A stretch of DNA of 64,000 nt from contig NZ_CP015101.1 in NCBI RefSeq assembly GCF_002214465.1, forward strand, positions 1,619,013 through 1,683,012. Direction: 5' to 3'. Both the position numbers and the translations under genes were made by a program. Below, one piece after another: positions 26,275 through 51,933 of the stretch. Numbering within the stretch: position 1 is the first letter of the stretch; every line of letters begins with the position of its first letter. The DNA comes from Thermococcus barossii. GTDB taxonomy: Archaea; Methanobacteriota_B; Thermococci; Thermococcales; Thermococcaceae. The notes beneath the pieces are model-generated. The model was not told the origin of the DNA. It saw nothing but the letters and a program-made list of their open reading frames with translations, and did no database searches.

Positions 26275-27490
<1,216 letters not shown>

Positions 27491-36572: not shown

Positions 36573-39500
36573 CTAGGAGCCAAAGAACTCGTCGAGGCTG
36601 ATGCCCTTCTTGGGCTTCTTCATCTTTGACTTCTCCTTCCTGACTGCCTTTTCTAGACCCTCGGAGGGTTTTGCTTTCTTATCGGCTTTTTTGGACTTCT
36701 TTTCAGTTTTCGTCCCGGCCTTTGACTTTTCGGCCTTTTTCTTGAGCTTCCCATTGGCCTTCAGCTCGTCCAGGTAGCCATTCCTGCCGTTAGATTTGCC
36801 CGTCCGCTCCTTTATCATCTTCTCGCATACGTCGGCGGAGAATCCCATGAGCGTCCTCTGCCTCTCCGGGAAGACGTTCTCGAAGAGGCTCTTGATGTCC
36901 TTCTCGGTCAGACATATCCTCTGCCTCGTGTAGTCGAGGACGCTGTACTTCGTAACGAGCATCTTCGCGGTTGGCAGGTACTTCTCTATGGCGCCCTTGC
37001 TGACGGTGAGGACTATCTTACCGCCGCACTTCGGGCATTTGCCGGTGAGGGGCGGTCTGCGGTACTTCGTGTTGCACTTGACGCAGCGGAACTCCTGACG
37101 GGTGAAGCTCCTCAGGTTGCCCCTCAGGTCGGGGACGAGGTGGGAGTTGATTATCGTTTCGGCAACGTGGTGCTCGTCCACCGCGCGGATGCGCTCAGCG
37201 AGGGCGAGCTGGCGCTCCACCTTCTCGACCATATCGCCGAGCTGTTTGTACAGGCTCATCTTCGGGCCGAGGCCGATGTCGTCGGTGTCGTGGGTGAACT
37301 TCAGGCCTTCGTACATCTCCGGTTTGCCCAGCCTGTCCTCAACGCGCTCGATGAACTTTATCTCCTTGGGCGATTTCATCTCGTAGGTGGCGCTGTAGAA
37401 TTCAAGGGGATAGTAGCGGACCACGTCCATGTTGTGGACCTCGCTGTCCACCTCGCGCGGGTCGAGGCGCGTGGTAACGACGAGCGGAGCGTCCATCTTG
37501 CCGCCGCGCTTCTCGGGCAGGTAGTACTTGCTGAAGTTGAGCAGTGCATCGAGGAGGAGCATGACAGCGTCCTCATCCCCGTCGCAGTTGCGTCTTTTAG
37601 CTGCATGATAGTACGGGTGAGCGTAGCCCACCAGAACGTCCGAAAAGCCGATTATCCTGCCGATGATTCCGGCCGAGGTGTGCGGGGCCAAACCTATAAC
37701 GAGGTGCCCGACGAGGTCCTCCATCTTCTCGGCGTTGTAGAACCTCGGCAGGCCGTAGAACTTCTCAAGGAGGTCGTCTATGAAGCGAGCCACCTTGAGG
37801 AGATATTTTCCTGCCTCGTAGGGCAGTATGACGTCCTGGACTTTAAGCTCGAGTATCTGGTCGTCCCTCTCTAAGGGCTTGCCCTCGAAGTCGTGGGTGT
37901 AGCCGAGCTCCCTCAATTTTTCAACGCTCGTTCCAATCTCCCTCGGCTTGAAGTGGGTTATGGGTGCATCGGTGGCGTCGAAGCGAATGGTACCATCTTT
38001 AAAGACGTAGACGTCGTTTTTGGCCCTCAGCAGGCCCTTCTCAAGCGGTTCTGCCATCTTAAAGCCGGAGGTCATACCCTGGACGCCCTTGAGCCTGTCG
38101 ATGCCGTAGACCTTGACGTTCTCCATCGCGGCGCGGAGAAGCTCGGAGGGCTTTATGGTTCTCCTCGCGTAGGGCTTAAGCTCGGTTCCGCACTTCGGAC
38201 AGTGGAAGTCAAAGTTCTCGGCCTCGCTCTGCGAGTAATCAACGTTGCACTTGGCGCAGTGCCAGAGGAGCTCCTTCCGTGTCCCACAGCGCGGGCAGAT
38301 GTGCTCAGGCCCGGTGTGGCCGCACTCCGGGCACTTGAAGAAGGCTATCTCCACGCTGGTGACCTTTCCCTCCTCGGCGGCCTTCTTTATGTCGCGCGAG
38401 CTTCCACCGGCGAGGCCTATGGGGAAGAGAACCTGTACCGGCGGCTTCATCTTCCTCTCCTTGGCCTTCTCCGGCCTGCCCATACGAGCGCCGATCCAGC
38501 TGATTCCCCTGTCGCGGAGCTTTATCCCATTGTTCTCGTTGATGATGTCGATGACCGTGAAGAGGGGCTTGGCTTTGAACTCCCACTCGAGGTTGCCCAG
38601 GGGTGTGAGCAGAGCTGCACTCCAGGGGTAGTCTATCACGATGACCTTTTTCCTGTCCTCGGTTCGCTCAAGCCTGTGGGGGAGGCCGAGCAGTTCAAGG
38701 TGGCGCTTTATCTTTGGATCGCTGTCGAGAACTACCTTCCTCGCGAACTTGAGCTTTCTGAACTCGTCCCACTCGATTTGAGCACCCACAAGGGCCCTCT
38801 GGAGCTCCTCAACCTCTTCCGGCTCCAGCGTGTTCCAGTAGAGGGTGTAGTACGGGTGAAGGGGAACGTCGAGAACCTTTGAGATGTGCACCGCCTCCTC
38901 GACGCTCGGCCTCACGCGGAGGGGGTCCTTAAGGAGCTTCTCCAGAAAATCGGGGTCGAGCTCAATGTATTCCGCCGCCTCTTCGATCGCCTCGCGCGGG
39001 TTGTCGGAGAAGGGTTCGAGCTCGACCTCGTAGGTCTCCACCATGGCCTTGACGAACTCCTGAACCCACCATTCCTCGGCGTAGTTGGCAGGCAGGAGCG
39101 TCTGGTTGTTCTCGACGAAGTCGCCGAAGTTCACCAGAGCGTCCCCGACATATAAGATTTCCTCGATTTTGTCCCTGATTCTGAGGGCCGTTTGGTAGTC
39201 CTCTACCCTCACCACGCTCCCGTCCTTGAGCTTGACTATCGGCCCCTCGACGGTGGTGGCGGGGGTTACGATGCAGCCCTTGCCAGGCCTCTCCGTCTTC
39301 ATCTGGGTCCCAATCGCTATGAACTCGTCGAGGATGAGCATCGTCGCTGGGTTCACGCTCCAGGTGGCGAACCCGCTGACGCGGGAGCGACCGTAGCGGA
39401 GCCTGAACCCGCCGTTGGTTGATGGCTCGGCGAAGAGGGGCCTTCCACCGATTATCTCCTTCGTGTACTTCTTGTTGGGGGCTACATTGGCCCTAAAGCG

Positions 39501-40472
39501 CTCGTAAAGCCCGTAGTAGAAGCCCTTCTCGACCTTTTCCTTTACCTCGTCTTTCGGAACCTCCTCGGCCCTGGACTCGTCTGAGGCTTTCTTTTCATCT
39601 CCGGATTTTCCCTTCTCCTTGGCCTCGACGAACTCCTTTATCCAGTCCCAGCCGTCCACACCCATCTTGTCTATGTACTTGACGAGCTTCTTCGCCTTCT
39701 GGAGGACGCCCTCGGCCAGGACGAGAATAGCTCCACCGCGCAGGTGGTTGGTTTCAACGCCGGGAACGTCGCGGTGGGAAACCTCGACCTTGTCGGTTTC
39801 TTCGCCGGTTATCTCAATGGGGATGTTCCTCATGGCCAGCCTTACCTCGTCGGCCTCGGGGTGATACTGCAGGCGCGTGACGGCGCGGTGGTAGAGGTCT
39901 ACCTCCTCGACCATTCTCTCAATGTGCTTCTCGCTGGGCTTGAAGCGGTCGAGACCGAGCTTTTTACGGACGTAATCCCCGACGAGGACGCTCAGAGCCT
40001 GGGCCGTTCCACCGGAGCTCCTTATCGGTCCCGCGTAGTAGAGCGCCAGGTACTCGCTGTTGTCGGCCCACTCGTTGCGCTTGATCTTAACGTCGGCTAT
40101 TCCCTCAAGGGGAGCCGAGACGATGCCCTCTGTGAGGATCGCCAGGGCAGTTCTGACGGCCTGCTCAGCGTACTTCTCCTTGCTCCCAAGGTCACCGAAC
40201 CTGCCCTCGATGATTTCATCCACCACTTTAAGCGCGGCCAGCTCCTTTCCGTACTCCTTGACGAGAACGCGTATCCTCTCTGCCACACCCTTCGGCCCGA
40301 CGAGGCTCTCCACACGGCCGGCCATGTCCGTGGCCTGCGGCACCTCCACTTCAAGGCTCGGGTCCTTGCCCTGAGCGCGGGCCTTTCTCGCAACCTCATA
40401 GGCCCTGTCAATCTCGCGCTGGAGGGATTCAAAGTAAGCTTTCATCCCGGGCGAGTAGAGCTCCTCCCCCAT
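36573..40472 (-). CDS. polC: DNA polymerase D (Pol II) large subunit DP2
   Basis: 1299 residues, the catalytic polymerase subunit of the euryarchaeal replicative enzyme. Conserved features include RSSGGTAQALSVLVGDYVRK, PGVETNHLRGGA, zinc motifs CPECGHTGPEHICPRCG and CVKCNTKYRRPPLTGKCPKC, and the catalytic aspartates in NCDGDEDAVMLLLD. No intein interrupts the gene, although many Thermococcales homologues carry one. The C-terminal 80 residues are lysine-rich and end in ISLDEFFGS, a likely PCNA-binding peptide. The ATG follows the DP1 stop directly (TGAATG), so translation is coupled. Confidence 0.97.
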   Translation of the reverse strand: MGEELYSPGMKAYFESLQREIDRAYEVARKARAQGKDPSLEVEVPQATDMAGRVESLVGPKGVAERIRVLVKEYGKELAALKVVDEIIEGRFGDLGSKEKYAEQAVRTALAILTEGIVSAPLEGIADVKIKRNEWADNSEYLALYYAGPIRSSGGTAQALSVLVGDYVRKKLGLDRFKPSEKHIERMVEEVDLYHRAVTRLQYHPEADEVRLAMRNIPIEITGEETDKVEVSHRDVPGVETNHLRGGAILVLAEGVLQKAKKLVKYIDKMGVDGWDWIKEFVEAKEKGKSGDEKKASDESRAEEVPKDEVKEKVEKGFYYGLYERFRANVAPNKKYTKEIIGGRPLFAEPSTNGGFRLRYGRSRVSGFATWSVNPATMLILDEFIAIGTQMKTERPGKGCIVTPATTVEGPIVKLKDGSVVRVEDYQTALRIRDKIEEILYVGDALVNFGDFVENNQTLLPANYAEEWWVQEFVKAMVETYEVELEPFSDNPREAIEEAAEYIELDPDFLEKLLKDPLRVRPSVEEAVHISKVLDVPLHPYYTLYWNTLEPEEVEELQRALVGAQIEWDEFRKLKFARKVVLDSDPKIKRHLELLGLPHRLERTEDRKKVIVIDYPWSAALLTPLGNLEWEFKAKPLFTVIDIINENNGIKLRDRGISWIGARMGRPEKAKERKMKPPVQVLFPIGLAGGSSRDIKKAAEEGKVTSVEIAFFKCPECGHTGPEHICPRCGTRKELLWHCAKCNVDYSQSEAENFDFHCPKCGTELKPYARRTIKPSELLRAAMENVKVYGIDRLKGVQGMTSGFKMAEPLEKGLLRAKNDVYVFKDGTIRFDATDAPITHFKPREIGTSVEKLRELGYTHDFEGKPLERDDQILELKVQDVILPYEAGKYLLKVARFIDDLLEKFYGLPRFYNAEKMEDLVGHLVIGLAPHTSAGIIGRIIGFSDVLVGYAHPYYHAAKRRNCDGDEDAVMLLLDALLNFSKYYLPEKRGGKMDAPLVVTTRLDPREVDSEVHNMDVVRYYPLEFYSATYEMKSPKEIKFIERVEDRLGKPEMYEGLKFTHDTDDIGLGPKMSLYKQLGDMVEKVERQLALAERIRAVDEHHVAETIINSHLVPDLRGNLRSFTRQEFRCVKCNTKYRRPPLTGKCPKCGGKIVLTVSKGAIEKYLPTAKMLVTKYSVLDYTRQRICLTEKDIKSLFENVFPERQRTLMGFSADVCEKMIKERTGKSNGRNGYLDELKANGKLKKKAEKSKAGTKTEKKSKKADKKAKPSEGLEKAVRKEKSKMKKPKKGISLDEFFGS

Positions 40473-42581
40473 TCAAACCCCCTCGCAGAACTGGTCGAAC
40501 CTCACGACGGCGCGGAGACGAGCGGTCTCAACGTCTATTATCGGGACCCTCGCGGGGGTCGGCACGATGTTCACCATCTTCTGGAACTCCGTCTGAGCCT
40601 GCCAGGTACCGGTGTTTATCAGGAAAACGCCGTTATACATCTTGTACTGCATAACGTGGACGTGGCCGGCCTGGAAGAGGTCGGGAACCGACTCTATGAC
40701 GAGAGTATCCTCGGGGTCGGGAGCTATGGGAACCTTCTCGCCAAATGTCGGTGCAAGGTGGCGGAGCTTCAGCAGGTCGAGCATAGCCTCGGCCGGCCTG
40801 TGGTGGCTCCTGTTCGGGATGAAGTTGACCACGTCCTCGATTCCCCTGCCGTGGGCTATGAGAAAGTCCCTGCCGTGGAGCCTTATCACCGCGGGGTTGC
40901 TTATTATAACGGCGTTCTTGAGCTTGAGAAGGGGCCTGGCGTATTCTTCGTAGAAGCCCGGCTGGGGAATGGCGGTTCTCGCGGCATCGTGGTTGCCGGG
41001 GCCGATGAACATGGTTATATGGTCGGGTACATTGCTCAGCAGGTTTGCGAGCGCCTCGTACTGGTCGAATATGTCCGGAATGGCCAGCTCGTTGTACTGG
41101 CCAGGGTAGATGCCTATACCGTCAACGACGTCACCGGCGATCACCATGTACTTGATCCTGCTGACGAACTCCTCCTCAGCCTTGTTGTTCACCTCACCGT
41201 TGAGCCACTCCAGGAAGCGCATGAAGGCCTTCTCGCAGAACTTGTTTGAGCCGACGTGGATGTCACTGAGAAGAACGGCGTAGACCTTTTCCTCCAGGGG
41301 AGGCTTCTCGCGCTTGAACTTGGGAACATCGGGGAGGAATATCTTGTTGGCGAAGAATATGCCCCTGCCAGAGTACCTTCCACGGAAGGCTATGACCGAA
41401 TCGGGCATTATCTGGAAGAACTTTTTGCTCTCCTCGTTGTTCCGGTTTATGAATACCTTAATAACGCCCGTGTTGTCCTCGACCTCGAACATGTAACCCT
41501 TTGCGGTCTCGCGCTTGCTGTTAACGAGGCCAATGATGGTCACCTCATCCTCGTCCCTGACGTAGCCCAGCTTGGCTATGTCTATCACACCGCCTATCTC
41601 CGGGTTCTCGCGGAGGATTCTGCGCATCTTCTTGAGCCGGCTCCTGAAGTAGTCGGAGTACACCTTGATTATAACGTCACCCTCTTTACCAGCGGCATTC
41701 TTGGCCTTGGGTAGGGTGAACTTGACGTTCTTCACGTCGAATGTTATCTCGTAGTCGTCGGGGATCTCTTTGGCCCTGTAGTGGAAGTCCTCCCTTGGAG
41801 AGAGCCTAAAATCAGCGTAAACAGAGTAGCTCTTCTCCTCTTCGGGAATTTCCTCACCCACGTACGCTATGGGAACACCGTAATCCCCGTACACAATCTT
41901 GGGCTTGACCCCGTTTCCGTTCTCCTCCCCGTTTGCATAGCCATTATCGTAGCCGTTACCGTTTTCAGCCGATGTTTCTTCAACGATGGTCTCACCTTCC
42001 ACGGGAAGAACTTCCTCAGGAACCTCCGAAGAAGTACCCTCCCCCACTGCCGTTTTGGATTCAAAGCTCCCGCTGGCCCCTACATCACCCACATTTCCAG
42101 TGGAAATATAACTCCCCTCCTCAGACAAACTGCTTTCTTCTTCCTCCGATGATGCTATTTCAGGAGTTTCCTCACCTCTTTCAAGGAGAGTTCCAGTGGA
42201 AATATATGTTTGAGGGGCATCATATGAAGAAGCCGTATCCTCCTCAATTTCTGACATTGATGCAACCGAACCGCCGGATTCCGCAGAATTAGATATTTCC
42301 ATTGGGATTTCATCACCAGAAGGCGTTTCCACGTGAATCTGCTCCCCGGCGGTGGACCCTTCCACGGCTGAAGAGGAAGCGGGGCTTTCCATTGGAGAGG
42401 CACCCTTCTGGGACAGGAAGTCCTTCGCAAGTGAGGAGTCTATCACGAACGTCCCCCGTGCCTTGGCGAACTTTATGAGCTCCGCGAGGGTGAAGTCCTT
42501 CTTATAGCCGTCAACGAGAAGGTAATAGGCGGATGGAGTGATTAGATATTTGTTGGCCATCAAATCCTCGATCAGACCCAT
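40473..42581 (-). CDS. polB: DNA polymerase D small subunit DP1 (3'-5' exonuclease)
   Basis: 702 residues. An N-terminal domain of about 55 residues is followed by a low-complexity Ser/Glu/Thr linker (about 60-230), an OB-fold, and a calcineurin-like phosphodiesterase domain. The metal-binding motifs are DIHVGSNKF, GDVVDG, GPGNHDAAR, AHGRG and GHVHVM, giving the proofreading nuclease. The linker contains two copies of YISTG (around residues 130 and 160) whose codons form mini origin boxes at 42094-42106 and 42190-42202. The ATG overlaps the cdc6 stop (TGATG) with AGGAGG upstream. Confidence 0.96.
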   Translation of the reverse strand: MGLIEDLMANKYLITPSAYYLLVDGYKKDFTLAELIKFAKARGTFVIDSSLAKDFLSQKGASPMESPASSSAVEGSTAGEQIHVETPSGDEIPMEISNSAESGGSVASMSEIEEDTASSYDAPQTYISTGTLLERGEETPEIASSEEEESSLSEEGSYISTGNVGDVGASGSFESKTAVGEGTSSEVPEEVLPVEGETIVEETSAENGNGYDNGYANGEENGNGVKPKIVYGDYGVPIAYVGEEIPEEEKSYSVYADFRLSPREDFHYRAKEIPDDYEITFDVKNVKFTLPKAKNAAGKEGDVIIKVYSDYFRSRLKKMRRILRENPEIGGVIDIAKLGYVRDEDEVTIIGLVNSKRETAKGYMFEVEDNTGVIKVFINRNNEESKKFFQIMPDSVIAFRGRYSGRGIFFANKIFLPDVPKFKREKPPLEEKVYAVLLSDIHVGSNKFCEKAFMRFLEWLNGEVNNKAEEEFVSRIKYMVIAGDVVDGIGIYPGQYNELAIPDIFDQYEALANLLSNVPDHITMFIGPGNHDAARTAIPQPGFYEEYARPLLKLKNAVIISNPAVIRLHGRDFLIAHGRGIEDVVNFIPNRSHHRPAEAMLDLLKLRHLAPTFGEKVPIAPDPEDTLVIESVPDLFQAGHVHVMQYKMYNGVFLINTGTWQAQTEFQKMVNIVPTPARVPIIDVETARLRAVVRFDQFCEGV
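42094..42106. repeat. Mini origin recognition box in polB
   Basis: TTTCCAGTGGAAA, a perfect palindrome around the central G. On the coding strand it specifies part of Ile-Ser-Thr-Gly. Confidence 0.65.
42190..42202. repeat. Second mini origin recognition box in polB
   Basis: GTTCCAGTGGAAA, 96 bp from the first copy (a multiple of three, so both encode Ile-Ser-Thr-Gly in the DP1 linker). Confidence 0.65.
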
Positions 42582-43828
42582 CAGAGCAGCCTCCTCTGGC
42601 GGGACATGCTTATGGTCAGCACCGTCTGGAGCTGGTGGTCATGACGGTATATGTTCTTGACCTTATAAGGGGTTACGTTGAGCCTTATCTCCTTGGTCCG
42701 CCCGTAGCGGCCCTTGCTGACCACTTTGGCGTTGATGATACCGAGCATATCAAGCTCGTTTATCAGGTCGCTCACACGCCGCTGGGTGAGGGGTTCGAGG
42801 TCGATGTGGTCGCAGAGAGACTTGTAAACGGAGTAAACGTCGCCGGTGTTGGCCGGGAGCTCACCGTTCTCATCCAAGAGAACTATCGCGTAGAGCAGAA
42901 CCTTTGAATGGAGCGGAAGGGTCTTTATGACCTCCTCCATGGTATCCTGTTCGATTTTTTCCTGCGCCTTCCAGACGTGCCTTTCGGTAACTTTACTGGC
43001 ACCCTCGCGCTCGGCTATCTCACCCGCAACGCGGAGCAAGTCGAGGGCACGTCTCGCGTCACCGTGCTCGCGGGCAGCGAGTGCGGCACAGAGGGGAACG
43101 ACACCATCGTCCAGAACGCCTTCGTTGAATGCATCCTTGGCACGCTGCATGAGTATGTCCCTGAGCTGATTGGCGTCGTACGGCGGAAAGACCACCTCTT
43201 CCTCGCTCAGGCTGGAGAGGACACGCGCATCGAGGTACTCCTTAAACTTGAGGTCGTTGGATATTCCGATTATGCTCACCTTGGCCAAGGAAAGCTCGGT
43301 ATTTATCCTTGTGAGGGAATACAGGATATCATCGCCACTTTTCTTGATTAGCTTGTCTATCTCGTCCAAAACTATTATGACGAAGCGCTCCTTGGCGTCT
43401 ATTACCTCCTTGAGCTTGGCGTAGACCTCATCGGTCGGCCAGCCGACGAGAGGGACCTCAATGCCGCTCTCAAGCTTGAAATGGTTCACGATGTTGGCCA
43501 AGACGCGGTACTGCGTGTCCACTATCTCACAGTTAACGTAGATGACATCCACCGGGACGTTGTACTTCTGGGATATCTTCTTGAGTTCCTCCGTAACGAA
43601 CTTTATCGTGACGGTCTTACCGGTACCAGTCTTGCCGTAGACAAAAACATTGGAGGGAGTCTCACCACGGAGAACAGGAACCAAAATGTGGGCGAGGTTC
43701 TCAATCTGTTCACGCCTGTGCGGTAGCTCCTTGGGCGTGTAGCTGTGCCTGAGAACCTCCTTATTCTTAAAGATTTTCTTGGCGTGAAGGTACTTCTCAA
43801 AGATTGAATCGAGGTAATTGTCGTCCAT
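42581..43828 (-). CDS. cdc6: Origin recognition protein Orc1/Cdc6
   Basis: 415 residues from ATG 43828, with GGGTGGTG upstream. An in-frame ATG at 43876 would add 16 residues without ribosome-binding site. It is an AAA+ ATPase: Walker A VYGKTGTGKT, Walker B VIIVLDEIDKL, sensor 1 IGISNDLKF, and sensor 2 in AAREHGDARRALDLLR. A C-terminal winged helix (about residues 320-400, LTQRRVSDLINELDMLGI) binds origin boxes. It heads the polB-polC operon. The origin is 2 kb away, separated by two genes. A mini origin box at 43841-43853 sits just before the start and could allow autoregulation. Confidence 0.96.
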   Translation of the reverse strand: MDDNYLDSIFEKYLHAKKIFKNKEVLRHSYTPKELPHRREQIENLAHILVPVLRGETPSNVFVYGKTGTGKTVTIKFVTEELKKISQKYNVPVDVIYVNCEIVDTQYRVLANIVNHFKLESGIEVPLVGWPTDEVYAKLKEVIDAKERFVIIVLDEIDKLIKKSGDDILYSLTRINTELSLAKVSIIGISNDLKFKEYLDARVLSSLSEEEVVFPPYDANQLRDILMQRAKDAFNEGVLDDGVVPLCAALAAREHGDARRALDLLRVAGEIAEREGASKVTERHVWKAQEKIEQDTMEEVIKTLPLHSKVLLYAIVLLDENGELPANTGDVYSVYKSLCDHIDLEPLTQRRVSDLINELDMLGIINAKVVSKGRYGRTKEIRLNVTPYKVKNIYRHDHQLQTVLTISMSRQRRLL

Positions 43829-43840
43829 CGACACCACCCA

Positions 43841-43853
43841 CTCCACTGGAAAT
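43841..43853. repeat. Mini origin box in the cdc6 leader
   Basis: CTCCACTGGAAAT, 13 bp upstream of the preferred cdc6 start, between its TATA box (about 43908-43920) and the ATG. Confidence 0.65.
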
Positions 43854-43907
43854 CCAGCCCTGTCGCTGATTTTCATTCAATAAATTTCTAATTTGCCGAA
43901 CATGTGA

Positions 43908-43920: not shown

Positions 43921-44106
43921 TACAGTTGCCAATTGACCAATTTAATCGAAGAGGTTTTGAACATCAAACATGTGCTCCAGAGGAAGCACCGGATGCAGAG
44001 GAAAGCATAGATAATCGAGCTGAGGGGTTTATATGCCTTATTGAACAGGAGGATGTAAAAAGCCAAGCAGAAAATGGAAGGGATAATCAAAGAAAAGAAG
44101 GCGAAA

Positions 44107-44718
44107 TCAGCCCTCTTCATCCGTAGGCTCTTCTTCCACAGCTTCAAGGACAGCGTCGAGAAGCTCTTTGGCGTCCTTCTCTTCAAGCCCGACCTTGATG
44201 GTGAGGAACTCAATGAGCTGCTCGTAGGTGTAGCCCTTCTGAATCCTCTCAAGGAGCATGACGACGATGCGGTCAAATATTCTCTCAACGAACTCCTCCT
44301 CGAGACCGAGGGCAGAAACTCCCGAGAGAAGGCCAACTGCCAGAGCGGTCAGGGCGTCGTTGAATTCCTCCTTGCCGAGAGTCTTCTTGTCGAGGTCAAC
44401 ACGGATGTTAACGACGTCGTTGGGCCTCCCAAGGCTGAACTTCATCATGTATATCCTATCGTTTAGCTCAAGAAGGGTGTGGTAAACGTAGAGCCTGTCC
44501 TCATCGCTCATGCCGTAGGTTTCAAGGCTCGTGGGAATCACAAGATGAACAAACTCGTCGGAGAACATGACCACAAGGGTGAAAGGCATCTTCGGATGCT
44601 CAGCAACGTACATGGACTCATCAACCGCCTTAACCTCCCACGGAAGGTCAACTATGTCGGCGGCATCCTCTCTGCCAGTCCTAAGCCACTCAAGAACCTG
44701 CGTTTCAATATCAGTCAC
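44107..44718 (-). CDS. YbjN-like protein of unknown function, copy A
   Basis: 203 residues from GTG 44718 (GAGGTGAT upstream). It is acidic and soluble. The order DIETQVLEWLRTG, MYVAEHPKMPFTLVVMFSDE, VYHTLLELNDRIYMMKFSLG, then VDLDKKTLGKEEFNDALTAL resembles the YbjN/type III chaperone-like fold (a leucine- and asparagine-rich helix, then a strand, then D-L...F..AL). This is inference. A C-terminal helical tail (QKGYTYEQLIEFLTIKVGLE) follows. A paralogue is directly upstream at 44865. Both lie between cdc6 and the origin and are transcribed away from it; TATA at about 44752-44762. Confidence 0.7.
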   Translation of the reverse strand: MTDIETQVLEWLRTGREDAADIVDLPWEVKAVDESMYVAEHPKMPFTLVVMFSDEFVHLVIPTSLETYGMSDEDRLYVYHTLLELNDRIYMMKFSLGRPNDVVNIRVDLDKKTLGKEEFNDALTALAVGLLSGVSALGLEEEFVERIFDRIVVMLLERIQKGYTYEQLIEFLTIKVGLEEKDAKELLDAVLEAVEEEPTDEEG

Positions 44719-44864
44719 AAAAATCACCTCAAGGTTCTAAATGAGAAAGAGTTTATAAACATGCCGGTAGTAAGAGATTCTAATCTCGGACTACAAGGTT
44801 CTAAAAACGTATACATTAACACCGATACATCGACTGGAAGGCTGAAAAGAAAAACATGAGTACA

Positions 44865-45488
44865 TCAGAAGTACCCAACGTCTTCCCCCTGCCCATCAAT
44901 TTCTTTCTTGGCCGCGAACACCTCGTTGAGCAGGTTTTTTGCGTCCTCAACGCTCATGCCAACCTTGACGGTCAGGAACCTCATAAGTTCGTCCCTGCTG
45001 GCGCCGCGCTCAACCCTCTCCAGAACCATTCCAACGATGCGGTCAAAGATTTCCTTCGCAAAAGCCTCCTCCAGCCCCAGGGCTGAAACCGCAGACATAA
45101 GGCCTATTAGCAATGCCGTCAGCGCATCGTTAAACTCGTCCTTGCCCAGAGTCTTCTTGTCAAGATCCACGCGAAGGTAGACGTCATCGTCCATTCCTGA
45201 GAGGGTGAATTTCATCAGGTTCACCTGGTCGTTGAGACGAAGGAGGGTATGATACACCCTGAGTTTCTCGTCCTTTGTCATAGAGAATGTTTCCAGCCCC
45301 AGCGGGACAAGCAAATGGATAAAATCCTCAGAAAAAGCCACCAGCAACGAGAAAGGCATTCTCGGATGTTCTGCCACGTACATACCCGGCCTCATCTCCC
45401 GCACGGACCAGGGAAGGTCAACTATATCCTCGGCAGTATCATTGCCTGCCCTAAGCCACTCAAGAACCTGCGTTTCGATACCCTCCAT
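44865..45488 (-). CDS. YbjN-like protein of unknown function, copy B
   Basis: 207 residues from ATG 45488 (GGTGGTTAAC upstream); a longer frame to 45590 has no ribosome-binding site and reads origin DNA. It parallels copy A throughout: ETQVLEWLRAGNDTAEDIVD, MYVAEHPRMPFSLLVAFSED, VDLDKKTLGKDEFNDALTAL and a similar C-terminal helix. The tandem pair is thus a local duplication. TATA-like CGTTATTAACC lies at about 45519-45531. The fixed place beside the origin suggests a link to replication or simply strong synteny. Confidence 0.7.
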   Translation of the reverse strand: MEGIETQVLEWLRAGNDTAEDIVDLPWSVREMRPGMYVAEHPRMPFSLLVAFSEDFIHLLVPLGLETFSMTKDEKLRVYHTLLRLNDQVNLMKFTLSGMDDDVYLRVDLDKKTLGKDEFNDALTALLIGLMSAVSALGLEEAFAKEIFDRIVGMVLERVERGASRDELMRFLTVKVGMSVEDAKNLLNEVFAAKKEIDGQGEDVGYF

Positions 45489-45542
45489 GTTAACCACCAC
45501 TAAAAATTGGACAAAGGGGTTAATAACGTTACACCCAAAACA

Positions 45543-45567
45543 AACTTCCACAGGAAACCAGGGAGTT
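45543..45567 (+). repeat. Degenerate origin recognition box
   Basis: AACTTCCACAGGAAACC is followed by AGGGAGTT. The dyad and part of the downstream G-containing segment are recognisable, but the G-run is broken. Confidence 0.45.
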
Positions 45568-45749
45568 CTTAGAACACTTGTGTACACCAAAAATTGCTGT
45601 TTGTAAACGGACAGAGAAAGTCATCGACCGGCTTCCACTGAAAGGAGAATGAACAGGAGCGAACATCAAAAGAGATACATTGGAGCACGAGAATACACAT
45701 TTTGAGAAAACAGTTGCATTAACGTGTTAGAGAAAACGTTAACAAAATT

Positions 45750-45779
45750 GACCCCCAGGGAGTTTTGTTTCCTGTGGAG
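45750..45779 (-). repeat. Long origin recognition box, inverted
   Basis: Read on the minus strand, CTCCACAGGAAAC is followed by AAAACTCCCTGGGGGTC. This is the ORB form: an imperfect dyad plus a G-string. The dyad faces the AT-rich core and the G-string points outward to lower coordinates. Confidence 0.8.
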
Positions 45780-45862
45780 CGGGGTTTTGGGCTACTCCCA
45801 TGTTTGGACTGATCTCCTGGTGAAACTCTCCCATCCTTTTTTCAACTTTTGGTATTTATATG

Positions 45863-45887
45863 TTTTTATGAACAATGTTCATAAAAA
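45863..45887. repeat. Perfect 11-bp inverted repeat in the AT-rich core of oriC
   Basis: TTTTTATGAAC, spacer AAT, GTTCATAAAAA. It lies in the AT-rich core between the two long boxes. A second shorter dyad, GTTCAC-CGTATC-GTGAAC, is at 45918-45935. Confidence 0.75.
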
Positions 45888-46030
45888 GGATGTAATTTGG
45901 AATAGTGATGAATGATAGTTCACCGTATCGTGAACCTTGTTTAAAAGTAGTCTCATTGCTCTTTGTAATCTGTATTATAAACCCTTCTTTTCATATTCAC
46001 AGACTATAGCTCCGTCCATCGTCAAAACTG

Positions 46031-46060
46031 GGTTCCAGTGGAAATGAAACTCTGGGGGGT
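46031..46060 (+). repeat. Long origin recognition box, direct
   Basis: GGTTCCAGTGGAAAT is followed by GAAACTCTGGGGGGT. It matches the euryarchaeal ORB pattern closely and mirrors the box at 45750-45779, with the dyad facing the AT-rich core and the G-string outward. Confidence 0.85.
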
Positions 46061-46090
46061 CTTTTAGATGGACATCGAAAAAGACCTTTG

Positions 46091-46103
46091 TTTCCACTGG
46101 AAA
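46091..46103. repeat. Mini origin recognition box
   Basis: TTTCCACTGGAAA, perfect palindrome around the central C, 31 bp beyond the direct long box. Confidence 0.75.
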
Positions 46104-46174
46104 AATGAGTCCATCCGTGAATGGGCCTGGGCATGGGTGATAATTTTATTAAGGCAGGGGTCATAGTGCACATC

Positions 46175-47191
46175 ATGATCCCGGTACCCGTGGTTAGAAG
46201 ACTTCTCAGGATGAAAGTTAAGGTCAGCAGGAACCGGCTACTTCAAATAGCCACGCTTGTCCTCCTGCTCGCGGTCATTTTTGCATTTCTGTTTATGTAT
46301 TTCGAGAACGTGAGCTTCTACACGGCTTTTTACTGGGCGGTCATAACGATGGCCACAATCGGATACGGCGACATAGCCCCTCAGACTGAGGCCGGCCGTG
46401 CCGTGGCTATGGTTGCCGCCGTTGCCGGAATCTCAACTTTCACTGCCCTCGTTTCGATTCTGGCTGAATACTTCATTTCATCGTCTCTGAGGAGGATGAT
46501 GGGCATGCACAGGGTTAGGTATTCTGGACACTACGTGATAATCGGTCGCGGGAGCAGCATTCCAAGCTGCGTGGATGAGCTCATGGCCGCGATTTCCAGT
46601 GGAGAGGTGGAGATGCGGCCCATAGTTGTGGTCTTCCCCGACGAAGGGGAGCGGAAGAAGGTCGAGCTTCCAGAGGAAGTGGAGGTCCTCATTGGCGACC
46701 CAACCAACCCCGAGACACTTGAACGCGCCCACGTACGGGAGGCGTCCTACGTTATCCTCGCCCTTGAGGACGACTCGAAGTCCGTCTTCACTACCCTAAT
46801 GGTGAAGCGCATGTCCGGAGCGAAGGTCTTCGTCGAGGCCCTTCGCGGGGAGAGCCTTGAGCTGCTGAGGCAGGCCGGAGCTGACCGGGTGATACTCAGC
46901 AGGAGCCTGGCTGGAAGGCTTCTCGCGAGCTCCGTTTTTGAGCCCGAGGTGGTGGATGTCATAGATGACCTGACAACCGCCACCGGCGGCTACGATATCT
47001 CCGTTCTGGAGCGCAGGGATTTATGGGGCATCCCGTACGTGGAGGCCATGAAACGCCTCCGCAGTGATGGCTACTTCCTCTTGGGGTACTATCTGGAGAA
47101 GCCGGTTCTCAATCCTGCGCTGGATGAGGAGATTCCCGAAGGCTCCAAACTGATCGTCATAAAGCCCGGCTCTTCCAGTGGGAAAAGGTGA
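46175..47191 (+). CDS. Potassium channel with RCK/TrkA-N domain
   Basis: 338 residues from ATG 46175. The in-frame ATG at 46121 lies upstream of a TATA box (about 46141-46152) and is rejected; translation is probably nearly leaderless. Two helices flank a pore loop with the selectivity filter TIGYGD (about residue 68). A cytoplasmic Rossmann RCK domain (SGHYVIIGRGSSIPS) and an RCK-C domain follow. This MthK-like layout gates K+ flow by ligand binding, which matters in a cell that holds high K+. The codons contain mini origin boxes at 46593-46605 and 47173-47185. Confidence 0.88.
   Translation: MIPVPVVRRLLRMKVKVSRNRLLQIATLVLLLAVIFAFLFMYFENVSFYTAFYWAVITMATIGYGDIAPQTEAGRAVAMVAAVAGISTFTALVSILAEYFISSSLRRMMGMHRVRYSGHYVIIGRGSSIPSCVDELMAAISSGEVEMRPIVVVFPDEGERKKVELPEEVEVLIGDPTNPETLERAHVREASYVILALEDDSKSVFTTLMVKRMSGAKVFVEALRGESLELLRQAGADRVILSRSLAGRLLASSVFEPEVVDVIDDLTTATGGYDISVLERRDLWGIPYVEAMKRLRSDGYFLLGYYLEKPVLNPALDEEIPEGSKLIVIKPGSSSGKR
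46593..46605. repeat. Mini origin box in the channel gene
   Basis: TTTCCAGTGGAGA, one mismatch. Encodes Ile-Ser-Ser-Gly-Glu. Confidence 0.5.
47173..47185. repeat. Mini origin box at the end of the channel gene
   Basis: TTCCAGTGGGAAA, one inserted G relative to the core. Encodes Ser-Ser-Gly-Lys near the stop. Confidence 0.4.
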
Positions 47192-47321
47192 GGGGGTTGC
47201 TCCATTATCCTTACCGCCGGATTGTGTATTCAATCCCTACTAAAACGGTCCAGCAAGGGCGTGAATTCCTGGTATCTCTGGATATCCGGCACTTTTATCT
47301 TGCGCTCCATCGGAAAGAAAA

Positions 47322-47330
47322 GTATATAAC
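47322..47330 (+). promoter_or_regulatory. TATA box of radA
   Basis: GTATATAAC lies about 50-57 bp upstream of ATG 47379, implying a leader of about 25 nt that contains GGTGAG before the start. Confidence 0.6.
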
Positions 47331-47378
47331 CCTTCGGCTTTTTACCCCTATGAAAGGTAGCCGTAGCGGGTGAGTGAG

Positions 47379-48443
47379 ATGCCGAGGAAAAAGAAGGCTG
47401 AGGATGAAATAAAAGAGCTCGAAGAGTTTGAGGAGCTCGATGTCGTTGAGGAGTCCCCATCAAGCTCAACCAAGAAAACTAAGGAAAAGGGGATAAAGAC
47501 CCTTGAGGATCTGCCGGGTGTTGGTCCTGCCACCGCAGAAAAGCTCCGTGAGGCAGGTTATGACAGCATAGAGGCCATAGCCGTCGCCTCTCCAATGGAA
47601 CTCAAGGAGATTGCCGGGATAAGCGAGGGTGCGGCGCTCAAGATAATCCAGGCCGCGAGGGAGGCCGCAAACATAGGAACCTTTATGCGTGCCGACGAGT
47701 ACATGGAGAAGCGCAGAACCATCGGCAGGATTTCCACTGGAAGCAAGAGCCTGGACAAGCTCGTCGGTGGTGGGGTTGAGACGCAGGCGATAACCGAGGT
47801 CTTCGGTGAGTTTGGATCCGGAAAGACCCAGCTGGCCCACACGCTGGCGGTAATGGTTCAGCTCCCCGAGGAGGAGGGCGGCCTTCACGGTTCCGTCATA
47901 TGGATAGACACGGAGAACACCTTCCGACCTGAGAGGATACGGCAGATTGCAGAAAACCGCGGCCTTGATCCGGATGAGACACTTAAGAACATCTACGTGG
48001 CCCGGGCCTTCAACAGCAACCACCAGATGCTTCTCATTGAGAAGGCGGAGGAGATAATCAAGGAAAAGGCCGAGACGGACCGGCCGGTGAAGCTGCTGGT
48101 TGTCGATTCCCTCATGGCTCACTTCAGGAGCGAGTACGTTGGGAGGGGAACGCTGGCAGAGAGGCAGCAGAAGCTCGCCAAGCACCTCTCGGACCTCCAC
48201 AGGATAGCGGATCTCTACGACATAGCGGTCTTCGTCACCAATCAGGTTCAGGCCAAACCCGATGCCTTTTTCGGTGACCCCACGAGGCCGGTTGGTGGCC
48301 ACATACTGGCCCACAGCGCAACGCTCAGGATTTACCTCCGGAAGGGCAAGGCCGGAAAGAGGGTTGCCCGGCTCATAGACAGCCCGCACCTCCCGGAGGG
48401 TGAGGCGATCTTCAGGATAACCGACAAGGGCGTTGAGGACTGA
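47379..48443 (+). CDS. radA: DNA repair and recombination protein RadA
   Basis: 354 residues, the archaeal RecA/Rad51 recombinase. An acidic N-terminal tail, a helix-hairpin-helix DNA-binding domain ([15 protein letters not shown]), the polymerisation segment and the ATPase core follow, with Walker [10 protein letters not shown] and Walker [12 protein letters not shown]. There is no intein. ATG 47379 (GGTGAG upstream) is preferred over GTG 47370. The conserved [10 protein letters not shown] is encoded by a mini origin box (47731-47743). The short gap to nucS, 35 bp, suggests a shared repair unit. Confidence 0.97.
47731..47743. repeat. Mini origin box in radA
   Basis: TTTCCACTGGAAG, one mismatch at the last base. 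Encodes Ile-Ser-Thr-Gly, a peptide conserved in RadA regardless of DNA binding. Confidence 0.45.
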
Positions 48444-51100: not shown

Positions 51101-51113
51101 TTTCCACTGGAAC
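51101..51113. repeat. Mini origin box upstream of mtnP
   Basis: TTTCCACTGGAAC, one mismatch, in the mtnP promoter just before the TATA-like CTTATATGAG at 51120-51129. Confidence 0.6.
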
Positions 51114-51159: not shown

Positions 51160-51933
51160 ATGCCGAGGATTGGGATAATAGGCGGTTCTGGAGTCTACGG
51201 AGTCTTCGAGCCGAAGGAGACGGTCAAGGTTCACACCCCCTACGGCAGGCCTTCGGCTCCAGTGGAAATCGGGGAGATAGGGGGCGTTGAGGTAGCTTTC
51301 ATACCGCGCCACGGCAAGCACCACGAGTTTCCACCCCACGAGGTTCCCTACAGGGCCAACATCTGGGCGCTCAAGGAGCTCGGTGTTGAAAGGATTATAG
51401 GCGTTACCGCCGTCGGCTCGCTCCGCGAGGAATACAGGCCGGGCGACATCGTCATAACCGACCAGTTCATAGACTTCACCAAGAAGAGGGACTACACCTT
51501 CTACAACGGCCCGAGGGTTGCCCACGTGAGCATGGCCGACCCCTTCTGCCCGGAGATGAGGAAGATTTTCTACGAGACGGCCAAGGAGCTCGGCTTCCCG
51601 GTTCACGAGAAGGGTACCTACGTCTGCATCGAGGGCCCGAGGTTCTCAACGAGGGCCGAGAGCTTCATGTTCAGGCAGTACGCCCACATAATAGGAATGA
51701 CCCTCGTCCCCGAGATAAACCTCGCGCGCGAGCTGGGCATGTGCTACGCCAACATAGCGACCGTCACCGACTACGACGTCTGGGCCGACAAGCCGGTTGA
51801 TGCGCAGGAAGTCCTCCGCGTTATGGCCGAGAACAACTACAAAGTCCAGGAGCTCCTCAGAAAGGCCATCCCGAGGATTCCAGAGGAGAGGAAGTGCGGC
51901 TGCGCCGACGTGCTGAAGAGCATGTTCGTCTGA
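51160..51933 (+). CDS. mtnP: S-methyl-5'-thioadenosine phosphorylase
   Basis: 257 residues. It cleaves methylthioadenosine to adenine and methylthioribose 1-phosphate, salvaging the by-product of polyamine synthesis. Signatures: [12 protein letters not shown] (phosphate loop), [43 protein letters not shown], and TDYDVWAD. The C-terminal KCGCADVL carries the CxC pair known to form disulfides in hyperthermophilic homologues. ATG 51160 is preceded by GGTGATGACC; ATG 51130 and 51154 are in frame. A T-rich tract after the stop (about 51948-51990) is a likely terminator. Confidence 0.94.
51257..51269. repeat. Mini origin box in mtnP
   Basis: CTCCAGTGGAAAT. Encodes Ala-Pro-Val-Glu-Ile, a different frame from the Ser-Thr-Gly copies. 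Confidence 0.45.

Follow-up and report, generated by a model that had tools for sequence, protein, structure and literature searches.

A Thermococcales-type replication origin in Thermococcus barossii and the origin-type boxes that lie beyond it

The intergenic region at 45489-46174 of a 64,000-nucleotide stretch of the Thermococcus barossii chromosome (this whole stretch is called the window here) raises two questions: whether it is the replication origin of the chromosome, and what the copies of its boxes at other genes may do. The original prediction, made from the window alone, described an origin with two long boxes (ORBs) in mirror-image arrangement around an AT-rich core, flanked by mini boxes and surrounded by replication genes that are all transcribed away from it.

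Architecture of the origin region

The region and the genes around it contain the following features, in window coordinates.

36573-40472, - strand: DP2, large subunit of DNA polymerase D
40473-42581, - strand: DP1, small subunit of DNA polymerase D
42581-43876, - strand: orc1/cdc6, presumed initiator with AAA+, lid and winged-helix domains
45546-45556, + strand: mini-ORB dyad TTCCACAGGAA, conserved in the alignment
45633-45643, + strand: mini-ORB dyad TTCCACTGAAA, 1 mismatch, conserved in the alignment
45752-45779, - strand: left long ORB CTCCACAGGAAACAAAACTCCCTGGGGG, with dyad at 45769-45779 and G-run at 45752-45756, conserved in the 21-genome alignment
45780-46030: AT-rich core between the ORBs, presumed unwinding element
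45816-45834, + strand: inner element CCTGGTGAAACTCTCCCAT, in conserved columns of 15 genomes of the genus
46033-46060, + strand: right long ORB TTCCAGTGGAAATGAAACTCTGGGGGGT, with dyad at 46033-46043 and G-run at 46054-46059
46092-46102, - strand: mini-ORB dyad, TTCCAGTGGAA as read on that strand, facing the right ORB, conserved in the alignment
47370-48443, + strand: radA recombinase

The two long ORBs are mirror images, with inward-facing dyads 254 bp apart and G-runs that point outward, as had been predicted. Either 28-bp box differs from TTCCANNGGAAANNAAACTCNNNGGGGG by 1 mismatch. Shuffling of the window gave an expectation of 0.01 matches to the long-box pattern, and 0 of 100 shuffles contained two. 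In the T. barossii genome (a single contig of 1,922,421 bases), the two ORBs were the sole matches at three mismatches or fewer; the pattern read backward, used as a control, gave 1 match. The shuffles and the uniqueness in the genome rule out a chance origin of the two boxes. The predicted mini boxes were found as well, three in number (at 45546, 45633, and 46092), and the AT-rich core was evident as a dip to 31.5% G+C at 45800-45999, compared with 45 to 60% across most of the flanking DNA.

Alignment of the origin regions of 21 genomes showed that the conserved parts are the ORBs, the three mini boxes, and the inner element, which resembles the TGAAACTCT half of an ORB but has no dyad. In the right ORB, the dyad and the AAACTC next to it were nearly invariant. 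A 12-bp perfect palindrome (TTTTTATGAACA/TGTTCATAAAAA, an inverted repeat at 45863-45887) also lies within the core and is partly conserved in the genus. A structured RNA was considered as a reading of the region and was ruled out, because a search of 44000-48000 found no structured RNA family of Rfam.

Leftward from oriC, on the - strand, lie two YbjN-like genes followed by orc1/cdc6, DP1, and DP2; rightward, on the + strand, lie an RCK potassium-channel gene and radA. The genes are transcribed away from the region on both sides, as stated in the prediction, which was correct in all its details; radA is a recombinase gene and not a replication gene in the strict sense. Orc1/Cdc6 aligned over residues 34-403 with S. 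solfataricus Cdc6-1 (2qby_A) and over residues 33-413, nearly its whole length, with the solved Cdc6 homologue 2v1u_A, which we take to be the A. pernix protein. The two YbjN-like genes (44110-45488; PF10722, a weak match) separate oriC from orc1. Across genomes, the distance from the orc1 start to oriC ranged from 0.6 to 2.1 kb, with clusters at about 0.6, 1.2 to 1.5, and 2.0 kb; judging by this distance, other genomes may carry none, one, or two YbjN-like genes.

Identity and use of the origin

The long-box pattern was matched in 89 of 94 Thermococcaceae genomes, compared with 6 matches of the reversed control over all 94, and in every one of the 74 genomes with at least 90% completeness and at most 5% contamination. 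All 21 joined origin regions contained the inverted ORB pair. Dyad spacings were 252 to 271 bp, which correspond to no single helical phase, and helical phasing of the pair was thus ruled out. In two of the 21 regions, boxes of this type also form a second pairing over a longer distance.

PMC11005403 defines the Thermococcales oriC as an ORB-bearing intergenic region in the vicinity of radA and cdc6 and reports a stationary-phase marker-frequency peak at oriC in T. kodakarensis, P. furiosus, and T. barophilus. The T. barossii locus has the inverted ORBs and the AT-rich core, has orc1/cdc6, radA, and the PolD genes nearby, occupies the same place family-wide, and is accompanied by the cluster of boxes in DP1. 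Because of its conservation across the family and its fit to the published definition, the locus is a canonical oriC of an already known kind, and for Thermococcales it adds one further well-formed example. That it is the single Orc1/Cdc6-dependent chromosomal origin of the Thermococcus type we regard as almost certain. The prediction of a replication origin is therefore supported by sequence, position, uniqueness in the genome, family-wide presence, and match to the published definition, with its activity presumed.

Since dyads of the same type also precede genes elsewhere, the boxes might instead be mainly operators for divergent promoters of the two flanking genes, with no origin at this place. 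This is highly improbable: paired long boxes with G-runs exist nowhere else in the genome, and the ORB pair persists although the flanking genes vary (orc1 starts 0.6 to 2.1 kb away). We therefore retain the assignment as oriC. By analogy with relatives, Orc1/Cdc6, encoded 2 kb to the left, would bind each long ORB through its winged helix and the initiator-specific motif of its AAA+ domain, in opposite orientations on the two sides. This assembly and the mini-ORBs would together make up a nucleoprotein complex, distorting and opening the 250 bp of AT-rich core; MCM could then be loaded at the opened core, and firing would send two forks in opposite directions.

Like T. barossii, Pyrococcus (P. 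abyssi and P. furiosus) has a single ORB-bearing intergenic region beside cdc6 and DP1/DP2, with ORB repeats in oriC and with an ORB and mini-ORBs within DP1. Unlike Pyrococcus, T. barossii has two YbjN-like genes between oriC and orc1, and its dyads extend further along the chromosome. The other side of oriC is occupied by the potassium-channel gene and radA in T. barossii but by MTAP in genomes of a Pyrococcus-like genus (g3). The presumptive ori of T. kodakarensis has the same locus and elements; PMC5663688 gives it one full ORB and three mini-ORBs, versus the two clear full ORBs of T. barossii. Haloarchaeal oriC1 likewise has inverted ORBs with G-strings beside cdc6 (review PMC4010727), but its gene neighborhood differs, and homology is not claimed. 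Although the review describes the G-string as specific to halophiles, each T. barossii long box ends in a G-run.

The original prediction had cautioned that some strains replicate without this origin, and the caution was fair. T. kodakarensis grows normally after the loss of cdc6 and ori (PMC5663688), and deletion of oriC is viable in T. barophilus (PMC11005403). Because of these two cases, the origin is probably used part-time in the genus, with recombination-dependent initiation as the alternative. Strand skew was sampled in 25 stretches of the T. barossii genome. GC skew did not differ between the left and right sides (p 0.98) and is uninformative as proof of an origin in this species, while GGGT skew differed weakly (permutation p 0.046); the cumulative skew minimum within 103 kb lay away from oriC. 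In a g3 genome (G012; 22 stretches), the corresponding values were p 0.05 for GC skew and p 0.003 for GGGT skew. The skew at oriC is weaker in T. barossii than in this one g3 genome, which would fit either a reduced or irregular use of the origin or frequent rearrangement.

Weak skew, the T. kodakarensis deletion without a growth defect, and the viable T. barophilus deletion could also mean that the origin is conserved but mostly idle, with initiation mostly recombination-dependent and the region kept for some other Orc1/Cdc6 function or for use under rare conditions. We doubt this reading, because 21 of 21 regions conserve the two long boxes as well as the spacing between them and because PMC11005403 places stationary-phase marker-frequency peaks at oriC in three species. 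Part-time use remains our preferred interpretation.

Mini-ORBs beyond the origin

Exact TTCCASTGGAA dyads occur nine times in the T. barossii genome, and eight of the nine lie at 1,661,107-1,690,663, within 26 kb of oriC. Away from oriC, sites of the ORB type in the window are as follows.

26739-26756, + strand: degenerate ORB half CTCCAGTGGAAACGGGAC, upstream of the triosephosphate isomerase gene
42095-42105, + strand: mini-ORB inside DP1, TTCCAGTGGAA on that strand
42191-42201, + strand: second mini-ORB inside DP1, 96 bp from the first
47732-47742, - strand: mini-ORB inside radA, at codons 119-123 (I-S-T-G-S)
51102-51112, - strand: mini-ORB in the MTAP promoter, 9 bp before a TATA-like block; the gene is at 51160-51933, + strand

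Across genomes, DP1 contains two or three intragenic sites, mostly 96 bp apart. A genome-wide binding study reportedly covers Orc1/Cdc6 binding at the dp1 repeats. These ORB/mini-ORB repeats have already been published (PMC2643942), and the two known sites served as a positive control in a test of synonymous conservation, in which they ranked 1 and 2 of 55 windows of the gene. In the same test with 34 radA sequences, codons 119-123 ranked first among 51 windows of the gene for synonymous conservation (0.91; median, 0.52), and the dyad was exact in 19 of the 34, had one mismatch in 7, and was absent from 8. A different dyad occurs near radA, about 2.05 kb to the right of oriC (loci L060, L068, L081, and L112) or 1.1 kb (G073); no counterpart of it was placed in T. 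barossii radA. The sequence around this extra dyad presumably resembles the Pyrococcus RadA intein. An exact dyad in a gene for a Trm14-type tRNA methyltransferase (L056:7651-7661) recurs in several genomes and may reflect coding or DNA constraint.

At MTAP, an exact dyad was present in 40 of 60 promoters examined (35 of 40 in the genus of T. barossii, 5 of 8 in g3, and 0 of 12 elsewhere). All 40 dyad-bearing promoters have exactly 9 nt between the dyad and a TTA[AT]AT block, with variable sequence upstream. In two g3 genomes (G005 and G012), the MTAP gene is reversed beside oriC, and the dyad is reversed along with it. The trpS leader, just past the window end, has an exact dyad in 43 of 52 cases in the genus, a dyad with one mismatch in 7, and none in 2; outside the genus, it was found in 1 of 3 cases in g2 and 0 of 22 in g3-g6. 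Nine genomes of the genus have their trpS gene at a distance of over 30 kb from oriC. Seven of them keep the dyad, at 32 to 133 kb (one with the central base changed), and two, at 78 and 649 kb, are without it. Because the dyad is retained in seven of these nine, the outlying boxes appear to belong to genes.

The ninth exact dyad of T. barossii, in the leader of the malic enzyme gene, is 178 kb from oriC and is the only one outside the oriC neighborhood. Among 30 genomes searched, 23 have the malic enzyme gene; its dyad is also exact in G030 and, by coordinates, in G016 and G029, and has one mismatch in G013 (where the central base is changed too), G026, and G071. The triosephosphate isomerase site was found in 9 of 21 genomes, at the same place and nearer the consensus in relatives, in opposite orientation to the gene. 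Three genomes (G018, G020, and G029) have a dyad just upstream of orc1, where T. barossii has none.

The strict dyad was then counted by distance from oriC in 28 genomes (for one batch, 7 of 10 were used). Within the genus (15 genomes), 28 dyads lay 5 to 30 kb from oriC, a density 20 to 32 times that beyond 60 kb, and 26 of the 28 pointed toward oriC; beyond 60 kb, the two directions were equal (23 versus 23). The 13 genomes of four other genera had 4 dyads in total at 5 to 30 kb. With the extended motif TTCCASTGGAAAYDAAAC and one mismatch allowed, 21 genomes gave 122 matches (control, 1), of which 104 lay within 35 kb of oriC, that is, in 3.6% of the sequence. Because many sites are inherited copies of one another, these counts are not independent events.

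The bias of 26 of 28 toward oriC suggested a replication-polarity motif of the KOPS or Chi kind. Such a motif was ruled out by the shared inheritance of many of the sites, by the 23:23 balance beyond 60 kb, and by the MTAP dyad, whose direction is reversed along with the gene in Pyrococcus-like genomes. The best explanation of the polar halo is that each box is linked to a particular gene and that most of these genes are near oriC and transcribed away from it. The density near oriC and the 104 of 122 extended matches within 35 kb would also be expected if the mini-ORBs formed a titration or loading zone that works by nearness to oriC and not by gene control. This is unlikely in our view, given the trpS dyad retained 32 to 133 kb away in seven of nine displaced cases, the malic enzyme dyad 156 to 200 kb away in four genomes, and the dyad-TATA spacing at MTAP, which is fixed in two genera whose MTAP genes are oppositely oriented with respect to oriC. 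The displaced trpS and malic enzyme dyads rule out a strict dependence on distance. Some effect of distance may nevertheless exist, because two of the nine displaced trpS genes are without the dyad and none was wholly lost among the cases listed for the genus at less than 30 kb.

A possible regulatory role for Orc1/Cdc6 and the trpS leader frame

Fixed promoter spacing and synonymous conservation argue that the DNA itself is selected at the gene-linked boxes. With mini-ORBs at MTAP, trpS, triosephosphate isomerase, and, in some species, malic enzyme and orc1, together with the conserved radA box, it is conceivable, though we hold it only tentatively, that Orc1/Cdc6 doubles as a transcription regulator. 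From the identity of the sites with ORB halves, we infer that Orc1/Cdc6 would be their reader. Two properties may be looked for in a regulon. One, a constant spacing between the site and core promoter elements across several species, was found at MTAP. The other, uniform orientation, was not: the site has the same orientation at MTAP, trpS, and malic enzyme and the opposite one at triosephosphate isomerase. Because the dyad is near-symmetric, orientation is a weak guide here.

Away from oriC, the dyad often persists while the AAACTC extension decays, as in the T. barossii MTAP promoter (GGTGGCTCCAT), and the outlying boxes could therefore be read by another transcription factor that shares the dyad. 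This seems to us rather unlikely and somewhat less so than the titration zone: many trpS leaders and MTAP promoters have GAGTTT(C/T)(G/A)T, identical to the ORB half, in front of the dyad, malic enzyme has a near form, and the dp1 copies of the same element are published as ORB/mini-ORB repeats in PMC2643942. For Orc1/Cdc6 as regulator, Saccharolobus Orc1-2, a DNA-damage regulator of the Orc1 family, is a precedent in archaea (PMC9738581). Orc1-2 is, however, a separate non-initiator, whereas the origin-linked Orc1/Cdc6 of T. barossii would need to do both jobs. Our literature search, which took in few subscription journals, found no ORB regulon or regulatory role of ORBs in Thermococcales. 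If Orc1/Cdc6 does regulate these genes, the state of the origin would be coupled both to metabolism and to radA, whose product serves the alternative initiation by recombination; this would offer a reason why Thermococcus retains a deletable cdc6 and ori. With conserved Orc1-type promoter boxes and the radA box as targets, such a second role is directly testable in existing deletion strains.

The trpS leader also contains a short open frame. About 0.5 kb past the window end (L056:504-533; genome 1683516-1683545), nine codons encode MPGDCFWPW, followed by a stop, upstream of trpS. No Rfam family reached the cutoff in this leader region, and a literature search of the same coverage found no paper on a trpS leader peptide. 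The sequence pattern makes a Trp-sensing leader peptide possible in this archaeon. By a strict pattern, a nine-codon frame with M-x-G-(D/G)-(C/R/G)-(F/L)-W was present in 76 of 77 Thermococcaceae leaders, and the 77th has one extra codon; the frame mostly ends in x-W-stop, that is, with a second Trp before the stop. Codons 2, 5, and 8 vary at the third position in the manner of coding DNA, and codon 3 is invariably GGT.
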